A program made the position numbers and the translations under genes. From positions 682,001 to 746,000 of the forward strand of contig JACRNY010000001.1 of NCBI GenBank assembly GCA_016214695.1: a stretch of DNA of 64,000 nucleotides, given 5' to 3'. The stretch is from Nitrosomonadales bacterium. GTDB lineage: Bacteria; Pseudomonadota; Gammaproteobacteria; Burkholderiales; Gallionellaceae. Positions within the stretch are counted from its first letter, which is position 1; the number at the start of each line of letters is the position of its first letter. This document shows positions 30,916 to 55,006 of this stretch, one piece after another. The notes beneath the pieces were generated by a model that was given only the letters and a program-made list of their open reading frames with translations, was not told where the DNA came from and did no database searches.

Positions 30916-30965
30916 ATAACCGGCGACTTGGCTGGCGTTGTTTGCCAGCCTGGTCGAATGGCTAG
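30916..30965 (-). repeat. REP-like hairpin element, copy 1
   Basis: On the minus strand this 50-bp unit begins CTAGCCATTCGAC and ends AAGTCGCCGGTTAT. The ends pair imperfectly with each other and enclose a perfect 7-bp inner stem (GGCTGGC/GCCAGCC). It lies between the hypothetical gene and valS, about 50 bases before the valS start. Copies 2 and 3 are at 33859-33902 and 39758-39807. Confidence 0.85.
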
Positions 30966-31016
30966 TTGATTAATCAAGCTCAGGACAGGCTTTCAAGCCG
31001 TACGCAAATACATCAA

Positions 31017-33828: not shown

Positions 33829-33920
33829 CCCTCCCCCACCCCAATCCTGGTGGAACTACTAGCCATTCGACTAAGCCCGCAAGCGGGCAAGTCGCTGGTT
33901 ATCCCCCAGAGGGAGAGGGG
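33829..33920. repeat. G+C-rich palindromic element (half copy) interrupted by REP copy 2
   Basis: The flanks read CCCTCCCCCACCCCAATCC on the left and CCCCCAGAGGGAGAGGGG on the right. This is the same block that is continuous at 40310-40346 (CCCTCACCCCTAGCCCCT then CTCCCGC). Here the two parts are separated by the REP-like unit. It lies in the 155-base spacer after valS. Confidence 0.7.
33859..33902 (+). repeat. REP-like hairpin element, copy 2
   Basis: The arms CTAGCCATTCGACTA and AAGTCGCTGGTTAT are nearly identical to copies 1 and 3. The inner stem is a different sequence, GCCCGC/GCGGGC with a two-base loop, yet still perfectly paired. Confidence 0.85.
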
Positions 33921-38568: not shown

Positions 38569-39618
38569 TCAGCATATACGCGGCAACTGCTCCCCCGCGA
38601 GCCAGTCCACCACGCGGCGACCGCCCAGCCGGGTGGTCATCTGCACGAAACCGTGGGGATCTTCCAGCACCTCGCCGATGATGGCGGTATCGCGTCCCAG
38701 CGGATGCGCGCGCATCGCCTGCAGCAGACGTTCGGCATCCGCGGCAGCACACACCGCGATGAGCTTGCCCTCGTTCGCCACATACAAGGGATCGAGCCCG
38801 AGGAACTCGCATGCCGCCGCCACCGGCTGGTTCACTGCAATGGCCGATTCCTGCAGCATCATGCCCACACCGGACTGTCTGGCGATCTCGTTCAGCGTCG
38901 TCGCCAGCCCGCCGCGCGTCGGATCGCGCAACACACGCAGCTTTGCGCCGCTGTCGAGCATGGCGGCGATGAGCCCATGCAGGGCGGCGGTATCCGACAC
39001 GATGGGTGCGGAGAAGGTCAGCCCCTCTCTTTGGGAAAGTATGGCCATGCCGTGATCGCCGATTGTGCCTGACAACAATATCCTGTCGCCCGGCTGCGCC
39101 AGATCGCCGGACAGTTGCACACCCTCGCGCAGCACGCCCACGCCGGTGGTGGTGATGAACACACCATCGCCCTTGCCCTGCTCCACCACCTTGGTGTCGC
39201 CGGTGACGATGGGCACGCCGGCCTCGCGCGCGGCGCGCGCCATCGACTCGACGATGCGCTTCAGATCGGCCAGCGGGAATCCTTCTTCCAGAATGAAGCC
39301 CGCCGACAGATATAAAGGCTGCGCCCCCATCACCGCCACATCGTTGATGGTGCCGTGCACCGACAGACAACCGATGTCACCACCGGCGAAGAACAGCGGC
39401 GACACCACATGGCTGTCCGTCGCCATCACCAGCCGACCGTTCGCCACGGGCAAAGTCGCACCGTCGTTGCCCTGCGCCAGATATTCGTTGTCGAACGCGG
39501 CGGCAAAGAGCTCCGTGATGAGCTGCGCCATCGCCCGCCCGCCGGAACCGTGCGACATGTCGACGCGGCCGTGCTTGAGGTCGAGTGCGCGGGTGTAGTT
39601 GGGTTTGACTGCGCTCAT
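38569..39618 (-). CDS. hypE: Hydrogenase maturation protein HypE
   Basis: A 349-residue PurM-like ATPase. It dehydrates the carbamoyl group received from HypF on its C-terminal Cys to thiocyanate, the source of the CN ligands of the NiFe site. The essential C-terminus PRIC is intact. Other motifs are HGSGGRAMAQLI near the N-terminus, ATDSHVVSPLFF, VHGTINDVAVMGA and DPTRGGLATTLNEIA. It is separated from the other hyp genes by a DUF559 gene and two large palindromes, so its expression may have been uncoupled from hypD. Confidence 0.96.
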   Translation of the reverse strand: MSAVKPNYTRALDLKHGRVDMSHGSGGRAMAQLITELFAAAFDNEYLAQGNDGATLPVANGRLVMATDSHVVSPLFFAGGDIGCLSVHGTINDVAVMGAQPLYLSAGFILEEGFPLADLKRIVESMARAAREAGVPIVTGDTKVVEQGKGDGVFITTTGVGVLREGVQLSGDLAQPGDRILLSGTIGDHGMAILSQREGLTFSAPIVSDTAALHGLIAAMLDSGAKLRVLRDPTRGGLATTLNEIARQSGVGMMLQESAIAVNQPVAAACEFLGLDPLYVANEGKLIAVCAAADAERLLQAMRAHPLGRDTAIIGEVLEDPHGFVQMTTRLGGRRVVDWLAGEQLPRIC

Positions 39619-39651: not shown

Positions 39652-39828
39652 CTCCCTTCTCCCGCAGGCGGGAGAAGGGGCGGGGATGAGGGGTGTTCGG
39701 CCTATGCGACAAGTTGCTTCAACTCACCGCCCCTCACCCCAACCCCTGATAAAACCACTAGCCATTCGACTAGGCTGACATACAACGTCAGCCAAGTCGC
39801 TGGTTATCTCCCGCTTGCGGGAGAGGGG
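39652..39828. repeat. Large G+C-rich palindromic element, interrupted by REP copy 3
   Basis: The left arm begins CTCCCTTCTCCCGCAGGCGG and ends GGGGATGAGGGG. A ~32-base loop follows, then CCCCTCACCCCAACCCCT. The REP-containing insert occupies 39748-39807, and the arm resumes with CTCCCGCTTGCGGGAGAGGGG. Without the insert the arms pair as in the intact copy at 40230-40346. It lies between hypE and the DUF559 gene. Confidence 0.8.
39758..39807 (+). repeat. REP-like hairpin element, copy 3
   Basis: The 50-bp unit begins CTAGCCATTCGACTA and ends AAGTCGCTGGTTAT, with inner stem GGCTGAC/GTCAGCC. Relative to copy 1 the stem differs by a paired G-C to A-T change. The stop codon of the DUF559 gene (39788-39790) falls in its inner stem. 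Confidence 0.88.
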
Positions 39829-40207
39829 CTTTAGTTGCCTTGCTTTCGAACTCGACCACGGCCTGATAGATCGCCTCCATCACAGCTTCTGTTTCCGCCA
39901 GCATCTGATTGTTCCAGAACCTCAGCACCTTAATCCCTTGCGACTGTAACCATGCATCGCGTATTTCATCATATCCGGTCGCCTCTCCATGCTGACCGCC
40001 ATCAAGCTCGACCCCCAGCCTTTTCTCGTCGCAGTAGAAGTCGAGAATGTATCTCCCGACCGGATGTTGCCGCCTGAACTTAGCATCCGCGATCCGGCGG
40101 TTACGCAGCAATTTCCACAACAGCGCTTCAGCATCCGTCATCTTGCTCCGCATTTCTCGTGCATACGCACGGATGTCCTCGGGCAGTTTGGCTGGATAGT
40201 GCGGCAT
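39788..40207 (-). CDS. DUF559 (Vsr-like) endonuclease-domain protein
   Basis: A 139-residue protein of the DUF559 family, a fold related to the very-short-patch-repair and PD-(D/E)XK endonucleases. Diagnostic parts are KLRNRRIADAKFRRQHP-like (here LLRNRRIADAKFRRQHPVG), YILDFYCDEKRLGVELDGGQH and RDAWLQSQGIKVLRFWNNQ. The acidic D...E-x-D cluster is the presumed metal site. A GAGGTGA ribosome site precedes the ATG. The last ~14 residues (APLPQAGDNQRLG) are read from the palindrome plus inserted REP, and the stop lies inside the REP. It breaks the hyp operon between hypD and hypE. Confidence 0.88.
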   Translation of the reverse strand: MPHYPAKLPEDIRAYAREMRSKMTDAEALLWKLLRNRRIADAKFRRQHPVGRYILDFYCDEKRLGVELDGGQHGEATGYDEIRDAWLQSQGIKVLRFWNNQMLAETEAVMEAIYQAVVEFESKATKAPLPQAGDNQRLG

Positions 40208-40229
40208 TCAATTCACCTCACTTCATCAG

Positions 40230-40346
40230 CTCCCTTCGCCCGCAAGCGGGAGAAGGGTTGGGGATGAGGGGAGGCAAATATCCGGGACGTGAGTTTCATT
40301 TCACAATCCCTCACCCCTAGCCCCTCTCCCGCTTGCGGGCGAGGGG
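40230..40346. repeat. Large G+C-rich palindromic element, intact copy
   Basis: The left arm CTCCCTTCGCCCGCAAGCGG continues to GGGGATGAGGGG. After a ~35-base loop comes CCCTCACCCCTAGCCCCT and CTCCCGCTTGCGGGCGAGGGG. The two arms (about 40 bases each) are near-perfect complements, and each also folds on itself. It lies between hypD and the DUF559 gene and serves as the uninterrupted comparison for 39652-39828 and 33829-33920. Confidence 0.85.
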
Positions 40347-40348
40347 AA

Positions 40349-41461
40349 TTACACAGTCTCCCTGAATCTGCCATAACTATAGTGCGCCGCGCAGGCGCCT
40401 TCGGACGACACCATGCACGAGCCCACCGGATTCTCGGGCGTGCATACCGTGCCGAAGATCCTGCATTCCTGCGGGCGTTTCTGGCCGCGCAGGATGGCGG
40501 CGCATTCGCAGGCCTTGTTGTCCGGCACCGCCACATAATCGATCTTGAATTTCTGTTCCGCATCGAACGCGGCGTACTTCGGCCGCAGTTGCAGGGCACT
40601 GTGCGGCACGCTGCCGAGGCCGCGCCATTCGAACATGTCGCGCAGCTCGAACACTTCGGCCACCAGCTCCTGCGCTTTCAGGTTGCCTTCGCGCGTCACG
40701 GCGCGGGTGAACTCGTTCTCGACGGCGGCGCGGCCCTCGTTCACCTGGCGCACCAGCATCAGGATCGCCTGCATCACGTCCAGCGGTTCGAAGCCGGCGA
40801 TGACCACCGGCTTGCCGTAGTCGGCCGCGAACGGTTCATACGGTTTGCTGCCGATGACAGTGGAGACATGCGCGGGGCCGACGAAACCGTCCAGTGCCAC
40901 ACCGCCCTCCACCGCCAGGATGGCGTGCATCGCGGCGGGCGTGAGCACGTGATTGCACAGGATGCTGAAGTTCTTCAAGCCTTCGGCGTCCGCCTGTTTG
41001 ATCGCCACCGCAGTCGGCGGCGTGGTGGTCTCGAAGCCGATTGCGAGGAACACCACTTCGCGGCCGGGATTCGCGCGCGCGATCTTCAGCGCATCCTGCG
41101 TCGAATAGATCATGCGCACATCGGCGCCGCCGGCCTTGGCGCGCATCAGCGAGAGATTATCGGAAGCGGGCACGCGCAGTGTATCGGCATAGGTGCACAG
41201 GATCACACCGTGTTCGCGCGCCAGGCGGATGGCCTGATCGACGCGGCCGATGGGTAGCACACACACCGGACAGCCGGGGCCGTGGATCATGCGCACGTTG
41301 GGCGGCAGCAGGTCGGCGATGCCGTAGCGCGAGATGGCGTGGGTGTGGCCGCCGCAGAATTCCATAAGCCGGTACTGGCGTTGCGGGGCGGCTTCGCGCG
41401 CGATGTTGGCGGCGATGTTCTTTGCCAGTTCGCCGTCGCGGAATTCGTCGACGTATTTCAT
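40349..41461 (-). CDS. hypD: Hydrogenase maturation protein HypD
   Basis: A 370-residue iron-sulfur protein, the scaffold with HypC on which Fe(CN)2CO is built. Conserved Cys motifs are FCGGHTHAISRYG, GPGCPVCVLP, and the C-terminal 4Fe-4S set in CECAAILRG, CRIFGTVC and GSCMVSSEGACAAHY. IGFETTTPPTA and CNHVLTPAAM are also typical. The ATG at 41461 yields the standard MKYVDEFRD N-terminus. It starts 13 bases past hypC, in the same transcription unit. Confidence 0.96.
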   Translation of the reverse strand: MKYVDEFRDGELAKNIAANIAREAAPQRQYRLMEFCGGHTHAISRYGIADLLPPNVRMIHGPGCPVCVLPIGRVDQAIRLAREHGVILCTYADTLRVPASDNLSLMRAKAGGADVRMIYSTQDALKIARANPGREVVFLAIGFETTTPPTAVAIKQADAEGLKNFSILCNHVLTPAAMHAILAVEGGVALDGFVGPAHVSTVIGSKPYEPFAADYGKPVVIAGFEPLDVMQAILMLVRQVNEGRAAVENEFTRAVTREGNLKAQELVAEVFELRDMFEWRGLGSVPHSALQLRPKYAAFDAEQKFKIDYVAVPDNKACECAAILRGQKRPQECRIFGTVCTPENPVGSCMVSSEGACAAHYSYGRFRETV

Positions 41462-48582: not shown

Positions 48583-50976
48583 TTACAGGCCTTGATACAA
48601 GTAGCGTTGAAATCCGGTAAACAGATTGCGTATCGCGCCGATATCGCCGCCAAGATCGGCAACCGCATCGGGGATGGAATCGTGATATTTCAATCGCAGC
48701 AGCTTGGTTAGTTTCTCCTGCTCCAGCTCTTCCACACCTTCATGCACGTAGTGCGCCAACACAAAGCCGAGGAAGGCCTGCTGCTTGTCGCTGAAATGAT
48801 CGTGTATCTCTTTGTGTGCCGAAGCTGCCCGCTCTTTGCGCGTGATCGGCTGCAGGGCGAAAGCTACATGAGCCAGCACATCAAACAGGTCGCTGTTCTC
48901 GGCGTCGATAATCTTCTGCATTTCGCCTAGCTGGTCTTTGCCGAAGCCTTTCTCCGCCAGGCCTTCCAACAGTTTCTTGCGCGTATCCGGCAGGCTCCAC
49001 AGCGCGCGCAACTCGTCTTCGTCCCTGAAGAACTCCGGCAACTGACCGAACAGCAGTGTCAGAAACTCGGCTGCCGAAATCGGCTTGCCGTCCGGGCCCC
49101 AGAAAGTCGTTACCGAAATATGCTGGATGGTGCGTTCCTTGCCATCACGCAACTTTACCCGCACCTTGGGCTTACCCTCGTAATCGGGACGCGGCTGCTT
49201 TGCTTCGCTCGGCGTCCTTGGCGCGATAGGCGGGAATACTTTATCGCCGCCGTTATCCACTTCCGCCTCGCCATCCCACTCCGGGTCGTTAAATAGCTTG
49301 TGCGCCTTCACAAAATCGTAAATGGTGAAGTAGTCCTTGCCGTCATACAGGCGGGTACCGCGTCCGATGATCTGCTTGAACTCGATCATCGAATTGATCG
49401 GGCGCATCAGCACGATGTTGCGAACGTTGCGCGCATCCACCCCGGTGGAAAGTTTCTGCGAGGTTGTAAGGATGGTCGGAATGCTTTTCTCGTTATCCTG
49501 AAAATCGCGCAGGTATTGCTCGCCCAGCGCGCCGTCGTTCGCCGTCACCCGCACGCAATACAGCGGATCTGTGCTGACCGTCTTTACCTGATTGATCAGG
49601 TCGCGCACCAACAGTGCGTGCGCCTGATTGGCGCAGAACACCAGCGTCTTCTCGCGCTGGTTGATGGACTCCATGAACAGCTTCACGCGATACTTTTCGC
49701 GCTCCACGATTTCAATGCTGCGGTTGAAATCCTTTTCCTCATACAGCTTGCCCGCCTCAATCTCTCCCTCGATCAAATTGTCATCCGAGGTAAAGCGGTA
49801 TTCATCCAGCGTGGTGGCGTACTGCTTCACGCGGAACGGCGTAAGGAAGCCGTCGTTGATACCTTCCTTCAGCGAATACACGTACACCGGCTCACCGAAG
49901 TAGGCATAGGTGTCGGCATTGTCTTTGCGTTTGGGTGTCGCCGTCAGGCCGAGCTGTACGGCGGGGGCAAAATAATCAAGGATGCCGCGCCAGGTGCTTT
50001 CGTCGTTCGCCCCGCCACGGTGGCATTCGTCAATGACGATGAAGTCAAAGAAGTCAGGTGGATACTCGCCGAAATAGAAAGCCCGTTCCTCCGTTCGTGG
50101 TGAGCTTGTCGAACCATGAGCGGAGGAGCTCTGCCCTTCGACAGGCTCAGGGCGAACGGCATTGGCGGATGGCCCCGACATAAACGTCTGGAAAATCGTA
50201 AAGAACACACTCCCGTTCTTCGGCACCCGCCCCTTCTTGCGAATATCATCCGGCGCAATGCGCACCAGCGCATCTTCGGGAAAAGCCGAGAAAGAGTTGT
50301 ACGCCTGATCCGCCAGAATGTTGCGATCGGCAAGGAACAGAATGCGCGGCTGGCGCGCCCCATCGCGCTTCAGATTCCAGCGCGACTTGAACAACTTCCA
50401 CGCCAACTGAAACGCGATAAACGTCTTGCCCGTTCCCGTCGCCAGCGTCAGCAATATGCGCTGCCGGTTATCGGCAATCGCTTCCAGCACATTGTTGACT
50501 GCGCTGTCCTGGTAGTAGCGCGAACCCCACATGCCGCCCCTGTCCTCGAACGGCACAGCGGCAAAACGTTCGCGCCAATCGTTCGCCACGGCGAAGGTGC
50601 GATTCCACAATTCTTCAGGCGATGGGTAAACATCAATTTCGCCCTCTGCCCCGCTCTGCATATCCACACCATAGATGCGCAGCCCGTTGGTGGCGTAGGT
50701 AAAGCGCGCACCAATCTTGCCCGCATACTGCTTGGCCTGCGCCAGCCCTTCGGTGTAAGGCAGGTCGCGGCGCTTCGCCTCCACCACCGCCAGCTTGTGA
50801 TTGCGATACACCAGCACATAGTCCGCGATCTCCGGCTTGCTGCGCTGCCCCGCGCCCTGCAAGCGCCCCTCGGTGATGCGGTATTCGCGCATCACGCGGC
50901 TGCCCTCCACCACGCCCCAGCCTGCGGCTTTCAGCGCGGGGTCGATGTGTTCGGCGCGGGTTTCGGCTTCGTTCAT
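48583..50976 (-). CDS. hsdR: Type I restriction enzyme R (HsdR) subunit, EcoEI type, with in-frame palindrome insertion
   Basis: A 797-residue motor/nuclease subunit that translocates and cuts unmodified DNA with HsdM2S. The nuclease site is EIADYVLVYRNHKLAVVEAK (D...E-x-K). Helicase motifs are LATGTGKTFIAFQ (about residue 180), IVIDECHRGG (about 312), TATPKR and the motif VI region QIIGRGTRLYDGKD. The C-terminal ~160 residues are the EcoEI-type HsdM-binding part. About 23 residues (~272-295, RPEPVEG... segment) are encoded by a palindromic repeat inserted between motifs I and II. The ATG lacks a Shine-Dalgarno sequence on its strand. Confidence 0.93.
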   Translation of the reverse strand: MNEAETRAEHIDPALKAAGWGVVEGSRVMREYRITEGRLQGAGQRSKPEIADYVLVYRNHKLAVVEAKRRDLPYTEGLAQAKQYAGKIGARFTYATNGLRIYGVDMQSGAEGEIDVYPSPEELWNRTFAVANDWRERFAAVPFEDRGGMWGSRYYQDSAVNNVLEAIADNRQRILLTLATGTGKTFIAFQLAWKLFKSRWNLKRDGARQPRILFLADRNILADQAYNSFSAFPEDALVRIAPDDIRKKGRVPKNGSVFFTIFQTFMSGPSANAVRPEPVEGQSSSAHGSTSSPRTEERAFYFGEYPPDFFDFIVIDECHRGGANDESTWRGILDYFAPAVQLGLTATPKRKDNADTYAYFGEPVYVYSLKEGINDGFLTPFRVKQYATTLDEYRFTSDDNLIEGEIEAGKLYEEKDFNRSIEIVEREKYRVKLFMESINQREKTLVFCANQAHALLVRDLINQVKTVSTDPLYCVRVTANDGALGEQYLRDFQDNEKSIPTILTTSQKLSTGVDARNVRNIVLMRPINSMIEFKQIIGRGTRLYDGKDYFTIYDFVKAHKLFNDPEWDGEAEVDNGGDKVFPPIAPRTPSEAKQPRPDYEGKPKVRVKLRDGKERTIQHISVTTFWGPDGKPISAAEFLTLLFGQLPEFFRDEDELRALWSLPDTRKKLLEGLAEKGFGKDQLGEMQKIIDAENSDLFDVLAHVAFALQPITRKERAASAHKEIHDHFSDKQQAFLGFVLAHYVHEGVEELEQEKLTKLLRLKYHDSIPDAVADLGGDIGAIRNLFTGFQRYLYQGL
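50092..50160. repeat. Palindromic RPEPVEG-type repeat inside hsdR
   Basis: GTTCGTGGTGAGCTTGTCGA and CCCTTCGACAGGCTCAGGGC are the two halves of a common dispersed palindrome. It is a multiple of three here and keeps the hsdR frame open, coding RPEPVEGQSSSAHGSTSSPR or similar. Confidence 0.85.
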
Positions 50977-53468: not shown

Positions 53469-55006
53469 AGCAACGCCCTGATATTCCCCAGCACTTCCGC
53501 ACTCTCTGCATCCAGCGCGGCAATCTCGTCCATGATGTCTTGCGGGCTGCGATGCACCACGGCTTCGCCGCCATCGGGGTTCTTCACCGACAAATCATAA
53601 GTCGCTGGATCGATGTTCGCCGCCTCCACGCTCCAGCTCTTGGGCGAATCGGCGAAGGTTTTTTGCAGCGCGATGAATTCGGCAAGGTCGGCGTCGTTGA
53701 GCGGGTTGGTTTTGCCCATGTTGCGGCCGGGATCGAGCTGGTAGTACCAGACCTTTCTTGTGGGTGCGCCTTTCTCGAAAAACAGCACCACGGTTTTTAC
53801 GCCCGCGCCCTGGAAGGTGCCACCGGGGCAATCCAATATGGTGTGCAGGTTGCAGCTTTCGAGCAGGTGCTTTCTTAAACTCACCGAGGCGTTGTCGGTG
53901 TTGCTGAGGAAGGTGTTTTTGATGACCACCGCGCCGCGTCCGCCAGCTTTCAAAAACTTGATGAAGTGCTGCAAAAACAGGAAGGCGGTTTCACCGGTCT
54001 TGATGGGAAAGTTTTGCTGCACTTCCTTGCGTTCCTTGCCGCCGAAGGGCGGGTTGGCGAGGACGATATCGAAGCGGTCTTTGTCCTGCACGTCGGCGAG
54101 GTTGAGCGCCAGGGTGTTGGCGTGGGCGATGTTCGGCGCTTCGATGCCGTGCAGGATCATGTTCATGATCGCGATGACGTAGGCGAGGCTTTTCTTTTCG
54201 ATGCCGTAGAAGGTGGCTTCTTGAAGAATCTTCAGGTCGCGTGTAGTCAACCCGGCCTGAGCGCCGTTCAACCCTTCGACGGGCTCAGGGCGAACGGGAT
54301 TATGGGGCTCAGGGCGAACGGAATTACTTGTGGCGAGAGAACGACCGGAACGCAGGTAATCGAACGCTTCGCACAGGAAGCCCGCGCTGCCGCAGGCGCC
54401 GTCGTAGATGGTTTCGCCGATTTTGGGGTTGACCACTTGCACCATGGCGCGAATGAGCGGGCGCGGGGTGTAGTACTCGCCGCCGTTGCGCCCGGCGTTG
54501 CCCATGTTTTTGATCTTGGCTTCGTACAGGTGCGAGAGTTCGTGCTTTTCGGCCTGCGAGCCGAAGCGCAGCTCGTCGATGTGCTCGATGATGTCGCGCA
54601 GGTTGTAGCCGCTCTGGATCTTGTTTTTGATCTCACCGAAGATTTCGCCGATTTTGTATTCCAGCGTTTTGGAGTTGTCGGCTTTTTCCTTGAATCGGTG
54701 CAGGTAGGGGAACAGCGTCTGGTTGACGAAGTCGCGCAGGTCGTCGCCGGTCATGGCGGCATTGTGGTCGATCTTGCCGTCCTTGCCCTTGGGCGCTGCC
54801 CAGGTTTCCCAGCGGTAGGGTTTGTCGAGCAGCCAGGTGTATTTTTTGCCTTCCAGCTCGGCTTCCATGGCCTTGCTGTGCTCGAGCGCGTCAAGGTATT
54901 TGAGGAACAGCAGCCAAGAGCTTTGTTCGGTGTAGTCCAGTTCGCTGGCGCAGCCTGCTTCTTTGCGCAGGACGTCGTCGATATTTTTGAAGGTTTGTTC
55001 GAACAT
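53465..55006 (-). CDS. hsdM: Type I restriction enzyme N6-adenine methyltransferase (HsdM), with in-frame palindrome insertion
   Basis: A 513-residue modification subunit. The N-terminal helical domain covers residues 1-150. SAM motif I is DGACGSAGFL (202-211), and the catalytic motif IV is NPPFGG (318-323). The C-terminal part has the family DPATYDLSVKNP. Residues ~228-246 (SVRPEPHNPVRPEPVEG-like) come from a palindromic repeat inserted between motif I and the FYGIEKKSLAYVIAIMNM region, without breaking the frame. The ATG at 55006 (MFEQTFKNIDDVLR) fits the family. No clear ribosome site is visible. Confidence 0.93.
   Translation of the reverse strand: MFEQTFKNIDDVLRKEAGCASELDYTEQSSWLLFLKYLDALEHSKAMEAELEGKKYTWLLDKPYRWETWAAPKGKDGKIDHNAAMTGDDLRDFVNQTLFPYLHRFKEKADNSKTLEYKIGEIFGEIKNKIQSGYNLRDIIEHIDELRFGSQAEKHELSHLYEAKIKNMGNAGRNGGEYYTPRPLIRAMVQVVNPKIGETIYDGACGSAGFLCEAFDYLRSGRSLATSNSVRPEPHNPVRPEPVEGLNGAQAGLTTRDLKILQEATFYGIEKKSLAYVIAIMNMILHGIEAPNIAHANTLALNLADVQDKDRFDIVLANPPFGGKERKEVQQNFPIKTGETAFLFLQHFIKFLKAGGRGAVVIKNTFLSNTDNASVSLRKHLLESCNLHTILDCPGGTFQGAGVKTVVLFFEKGAPTRKVWYYQLDPGRNMGKTNPLNDADLAEFIALQKTFADSPKSWSVEAANIDPATYDLSVKNPDGGEAVVHRSPQDIMDEIAALDAESAEVLGNIRALL
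54268..54325. repeat. Palindromic RPEPVEG-type repeat inside hsdM
   Basis: It contains CCCTTCGACGGGCTCAGGGC followed by GAACGGGATTATG and then a second, shorter copy GGGCTCAGGGCGAACGGAAT. It is the same family as the repeat at 50092-50160 in hsdR. The reading frame is kept. Confidence 0.82.

Follow-up and report, generated by a model that had tools for sequence, protein, structure and literature searches.

The window, by which we mean the whole stretch of 64,000 nucleotides analyzed here, comes from a 2.66 Mb Gallionellaceae genome and carries a small gene with a DUF559 endonuclease domain between hypD and hypE, with a REP-like palindrome on each side of it. The features of this junction are the following.

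38569-39618, minus strand: hypE, the host gene downstream, with its start at 39618
39652-39692, plus strand: REP-like unit a, the outer unit of the left palindrome, hairpin CTCCCTTCTCCCGC..GCGGGAGAAGGG with tail GGGGATGAGGG
39693-39729, no strand: spacer of the left palindrome
39730-39829, minus strand: REP-like unit b', the inner unit of the left palindrome, broken by a nested hairpin
39748-39807, no strand: 60-nt hairpin nested within REP-like unit b', with relatives at 30916-30976, at about 33848-33902 and within other REPs of this genome
39788-40207, minus strand: DUF559 endonuclease-domain gene, 139 aa (Pfam DUF559, 138 bits, E 1.4e-40)
40230-40270, plus strand: REP-like unit c, the inner unit of the right palindrome
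40271-40307, no strand: spacer of the right palindrome
40308-40347, minus strand: REP-like unit d', the outer unit of the right palindrome, adjoining the hypD stop codon
40349-41461, minus strand: hypD, the host gene upstream, with its end at 40349

This layout agrees with a sequence-only reading of the window, which had described a 420-base DUF559 gene between hypD and hypE with a palindrome of about 117 bp on each side, both of one family. The gene at 39788-40207 scores 138 bits against a Pfam gathering cut-off of 20.6 (PF04480), which places it in the family, and both palindromes measure 118 bp, the left one (39652-39829) once its 60-nt nested hairpin, which that reading had not noted, is left out. 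The right palindrome (40230-40347) is intact, its 40-nt arms being 88% complementary and its folding reaching -85.8 kcal/mol. Each element consists of two facing REP-like units (a hairpin followed by a GGGGATGAGGG-type tail) with their tails inward and a spacer of about 36 nt between them, and the left and right elements match in direct orientation, 90% over 42 nt. Aligned against each other, the two flanks of the window gene scored 33.5, compared to a maximum of 14.0 in 1000 shuffles. The gene and its palindromes also overlap: the C-terminal codons of the window DUF559 extend into REP unit b' and the nested hairpin, and in relatives without the nested hairpin the TGA stop of DUF559 comes from the REP tail GGGGTGAGGG. 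At the window locus itself, terminal inverted repeats and a target-site duplication were not seen. The hairpin of about 60 nt (TAACCAGCGACTTGGCTG..CAGCCTAGTCGAATGGCTAG) recurs mostly within CCCTC-type REP units (the window, L007, L010, L015, L023 and L141) and resembles a small element with REPs as its target. Rfam returned no family at cut-off for the hairpins, only sub-threshold miRNA-like matches.

We compared 30 hypE loci from the same genome and its relatives. The idea that hypD and hypE are normally adjacent was borne out, as the search for relatives with an uninterrupted junction yielded 13 in which the hypD stop abuts or overlaps the hypE ATG, with 0 bp between the two genes. The same REPIN-DUF559-REPIN build was found in the hyp operon at five further loci (L246, L247, L256, L261 and L102), and also at a sixth (L252), which is truncated by its contig end. 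The nearest named relative of the window DUF559, from a Gallionellales MAG (L102), sits at this same locus. An occupied junction conserved without repeats had been named beforehand as evidence against a mobile cassette; the junction is conserved with them. This common build argues that the insertion is shared by descent, and the unit would have entered hypD-hypE in an ancestor of several relatives and been inherited vertically since. The DUF559 gene of L261 is broken by a stop codon. The REPIN upstream of DUF559 has the opposite orientation in L256, L261 and L102 to that in L245-L247: it was inverted in place, which fits cruciform resolution and equally fits plain recombination between REPIN arms. 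Other junctions hold palindromes of a different kind, among them a RAYT-type GTAGGGTGGGCAC pair in L255, or a GIY-YIG gene (L267 and L272). Separately, hypE of two relatives contains an in-frame insert of about 34 aa that divides it (G325:C65:43173-44315 and G353:C58:136-1284).

Palindromes lie on both sides of all four DUF559 genes of the host genome, and they fall into at least three sequence families. For each DUF559 locus in a wider sample, we took as a flank score the best local alignment, in either orientation, between the 350 bp to the left and the 350 bp to the right of the DUF559 domain, with same-size windows elsewhere in the same loci as background (n = 897) and a threshold of at least 18. 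This threshold was reached by 58 of the 69 DUF559 loci in a class-wide survey of 274 genomes and by 61/73 in named GTDB genomes, which span Pseudomonadota, Chloroflexi, Nitrospirota, Desulfobacterota, Planctomycetota, Verrucomicrobiota and other phyla. Both-flank repeats were thus present at 119 of 142 loci (84%) compared to 0.56% of the control windows, in a sample whose genomes are not phylogenetically independent and whose 80 named loci were picked as nearest to the query. The sequence-only reading had mentioned an association between DUF559 genes and such repeats from other genomes, proposed a survey for palindromes on both sides, and held that a majority of genes without them would tell against the idea; flanking proved to be the rule.

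About 16% of DUF559 loci score below 18. Two cyanobacterial records of the plasmid collection fall under the threshold yet show facing hairpins by eye, so the figure of 84% is conservative. Plasmid-collection records of cyanobacterial, Deinococcus, alphaproteobacterial (Azospirillum, Sinorhizobium) and Neisseria origin are mostly flanked too, and only 3 of 50,697 phage records hold a relative, which indicates that phage carriage is not the main route. We give almost no credence to the explanation that low-complexity C/G-rich repeats, or the sampling, produced the association artificially. CCCTC/GGGAG runs do abound in many of the palindromes and the sampled loci are not independent, but so few control windows reach 18, the shuffled window flanks never exceed 14, and flanking families of non-CCCTC type exist (AAATCCCCC.. 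in L004 and L094, ATCACCACCCCC.. in L066, and CCACCCCGGCGC.. in L095). The E. coli gene ycjD (L243, L413) also belongs to DUF559; downstream of it lies a palindrome of the CCCTCACCCC type, and the hairpin on its upstream side is a different one. In the E. coli genomes compared, ycjD was not an insertion that is simply present or absent, and an ST131 strain has different genes, not ycjD, beside fabI.

Genomes with several DUF559 genes carry several palindrome types, and within a genome each gene is paired with its own. The left flank of a DUF559 gene matched its own right flank with a mean score of 40.9, compared to 15.8 for the right flanks of the other DUF559 copies (n = 49, Wilcoxon 1.2e-8), and the own flank was better than every other in 39 of these 49 within-genome comparisons. 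Across loci, palindrome similarity grows with DUF559 identity, from about 11 at 35% to about 30 at 65% and above.

Units of gene plus palindromes also occur at unrelated places. Two copies in one genome (L065 and L066) match over 534 bp at 98.3%, with no shared sequence outside the unit, while two copies at unrelated sites in two genomes (L159 and L175) share 615 bp at 91%. In Legionella, DUF559-containing segments are recombination hotspots (PMC12308824). The palindromes exist on their own as well, as single units or REPIN-like pairs, some of them in frame inside genes. Seven single REPs of 38-42 bp within genes of the host genome have empty orthologous sites in relatives, and the reading frame is kept. 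No clean target duplication was found at these in-gene solo REPs, and a few host codons around the insert were replaced or changed, so no standard integration chemistry is visible. In mutS, independent in-frame REP insertions occupy the same place in two related genomes (L009 and L373).

These palindromes might be non-autonomous and moved in trans by a RAYT or an IS transposase, with DUF559 merely a passenger captured between them. REPtrons offer a precedent for REPs that are moved by a separate enzyme (PMC3733652, PMC8266576), and one genome, G325, fits this account: five of its DUF559 units lie within a MITE family (L304-L312, L415-L444) with terminal repeat GGTTCTATGTGATTTACAGTGG, present at 30 sites, and with target duplications of about 8 bp (for example AAGATGTC and TTATTTTT); copies of this MITE carry REPs and mostly lack DUF559. 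Ends of the MITE are found close to contig ends too, as those of a multi-copy IS would be, and the most recent G325 copies were probably moved within the MITE by an IS transposase acting in trans. Units outside G325, however, showed neither a terminal repeat in common nor a target duplication, and REP abundance is not tracked by RAYT presence. In the class survey, CCCTC-type REP counts were associated with DUF559 (odds ratio 13.8, P = 7e-9) as against an odds ratio of 2.3 for RAYT (P = 0.09), and the association with DUF559 persisted in RAYT-positive genomes alone (odds ratio 16.9, P = 2e-7). At the family level the median was 7 REP sites with DUF559 versus 0 without it (P = 1e-10). One genome, G093, has 42 REP sites, and no DUF559 was found there. 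The host genome has three Y1-transposase (RAYT-like) genes, two of which (L060 and L061) have different inverted repeats of their own, and none of the three has the DUF559 palindrome beside it. One would also not expect the divergence of a passenger to parallel that of its palindrome, or its omega to stay at about 0.1 across mobile copies. We consider the passenger account quite unlikely.

Some units sit inside proteins. Twelve DUF559 units that we examined, including one in the host genome (L003), are in frame within host proteins, where the palindromes on either side are translated as well (SPSGRGxGGEG / PPAPLPxGEGS). Restriction-modification genes make up nine of the 12 hosts (L046, L074, L075, L078, L081, L086, L092, L098 and L101), a bias that needs a proper background because the set was selected for long open frames with a high-scoring match to DUF559. 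These nine comprise three HsdM or HsdM-like proteins, three HsdS, one HsdR and two N6/N4 methylases; the remaining hosts are HrpA, an aminotransferase and an AIR-synthase-like protein. HrpA was struck at two positions, one in L003 and its orthologues and the other in L317, and in another genome the in-frame host is an MmeI-like gene (L322).

DUF559 is not the only small nuclease found in such a setting. Palindromes of the CCGTTCGTCCTGAGCTTGTCGAAGG type flank a subfamily of GIY-YIG genes (FWVYILRCADxSYYTGHTDNLE) at L267, L272, L388, L391 and L403, whereas canonical standalone GIY-YIG genes of similar size in the same genomes, which served as a negative control, lack flanking repeats. This subfamily with its CCGTTCGTCCTGAGCTTGTCGAAGG palindromes is a second nuclease/palindrome pair. 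We lean toward the broader view that palindromes without a RAYT are served by dedicated small nucleases whose folds are unrelated, the Vsr-like DUF559 for the CCCTC- and AAATCCCC-types and the GIY-YIG subfamily for CCTTCGACAAGCTCAGG, each co-diverging with its palindromes. The window has palindromes of the GIY-YIG-associated type as well (CCTTCGACAGGCTCAGGGCGAACGG, at 50090-50163 and 54272-54301), and a sequence related to the subfamily lies within an 899-aa open frame at L386.

DUF559 is a common gene that is usually read as a Vsr-like repair enzyme. Six residues (E27, D56, E67, D69, H73 and D80, in the pattern E, D, ExDG, H, D) are invariant in 37 sequences. Wherever a pair had enough synonymous change for an estimate, omega was 0.03-0.14, mobile copies included; DUF559 is under strong purifying selection. 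A structure model of the window protein (pLDDT 85.5) is nearest to 3HRL (Z 17.2, 46% identity over 94 residues), followed by the homing endonuclease I-Bth0305I (PDB 3R3P; Z 12.9, rmsd 2.4 over 94 residues, sequence E 3.5e-5) and by Vsr (Z 9.7); the sequence-only reading had related DUF559 to Vsr-like endonucleases. Holliday-junction resolvases come next at Z of about 7, a value that alone means little. The Pfam search found no Y1_Tnp domain in the window gene; the Y1 genes of the host genome are located at other places.

With this fold and these residues, the gene could be an ordinary Vsr-like repair gene acting on deaminated methylcytosine, its palindromes being incidental terminators or regulators, and the Caulobacter DUF559 protein VsrA is genotoxic when the cell has no cytosine methylase (PMC12907096). 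We disfavor this as very unlikely, since it leaves unaccounted for the flanking on both sides, the cognate pairing, the many non-homologous sites and the in-frame insertions, as well as the canonical GIY-YIG controls without such flanks. The position of I-Bth0305I among the closest solved structures bears on a different possibility, that DUF559 homes into palindromes: it would cut an empty REP-spacer-REP' and enter it through gene conversion, and the palindromes would owe their own spread to something else. The smallest units speak for it, being REP-gene-REP' with tails inward, like a REPIN whose spacer has been replaced by the gene (L003, L287 and L161). The gene of the window, however, like those of L004 and the hyp relatives, lies between two complete REPINs and not inside one, and the arrival of solo palindromes at new sites is left unexplained. 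On balance, homing of this kind strikes us as unlikely.

Our preferred reading is that this locus holds a single copy of a mobile unit with a wide distribution, composed of a DUF559 nuclease gene and its cognate REP-like palindromes, and that the enzyme is probably active in their spread. The unit recurs across genomes, its gene and palindromes diverge together, the two are jointly present at unrelated sites, and both are absent from the orthologous site in relatives. Under this reading, the nuclease would recognize its own palindrome, whether double-stranded or extruded as a hairpin or cruciform, and cut there; through repair or capture of the cut DNA, palindromes would then spread alone and, more rarely, as complete REP-gene-REP units. 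That DUF559 directly cleaves its palindrome is a step to which we give an even chance. Such a system would work like a REPtron in which a PD-(D/E)XK (EDxHD-like) nuclease substitutes for the HUH tyrosine transposase. The sequence-only reading had likened the cassette to a minimal homing or palindrome-borne mobile unit. The second half of that comparison is supported by the empty sites and the copies at unrelated sites, but strict homing to one fixed target is not, because the units occupy many unrelated sites.

DUF559 genes look to be the enzyme half of a widespread and apparently unrecognized family of palindrome-spreading mobile elements. We found no earlier report in the open-access literature of DUF559 with REPs, or of REPs with Vsr or GIY-YIG, a search that does not prove priority. 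The closest likeness among known systems is to REPtrons (RAYT/TnpA-REP), which likewise place a small enzyme gene between its own inverted palindromes, have many solo or paired non-autonomous copies and several enzyme/palindrome types per genome, and insert both within and between genes. They differ in their enzyme, an HUH Y1 transposase as opposed to a PD-(D/E)XK Vsr-like nuclease, and in the GTAG tag at the hairpin foot, which is absent here, where units read CTCCCTTCTCCCGC..GCGGGAGAAGGG-GCGGGGATGAGGG; moreover, the RAYT-like genes of the host genome carry other repeats. The EDxHD homing endonuclease I-Bth0305I resembles DUF559 in sequence and fold and in selfish spread via an endonuclease, but the DUF559 unit has no intron or intein and no single cognate site, is flanked by palindromes and encodes little beyond a catalytic domain of about 100 aa. 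Vsr shares the fold and Caulobacter VsrA is itself a DUF559 protein, whereas the context of the DUF559 unit is mobile and palindrome-bracketed. PDB 3HRL (NGO0050 of N. gonorrhoeae), a member of the DUF559 family, is titled simply a putative endonuclease-like protein. The DUF559 units provide a set of compact nucleases, each of which may recognize a long palindrome or hairpin. Finally, Rickettsia palindromic elements (RPE) and CGTC-type REPs are also short palindromes in frame within protein-coding genes; they belong to other sequence families, and for the DUF559 palindromes a cognate enzyme gene is identified. DUF559 units also offer a possible route by which puzzling in-frame palindromic inserts enter proteins.
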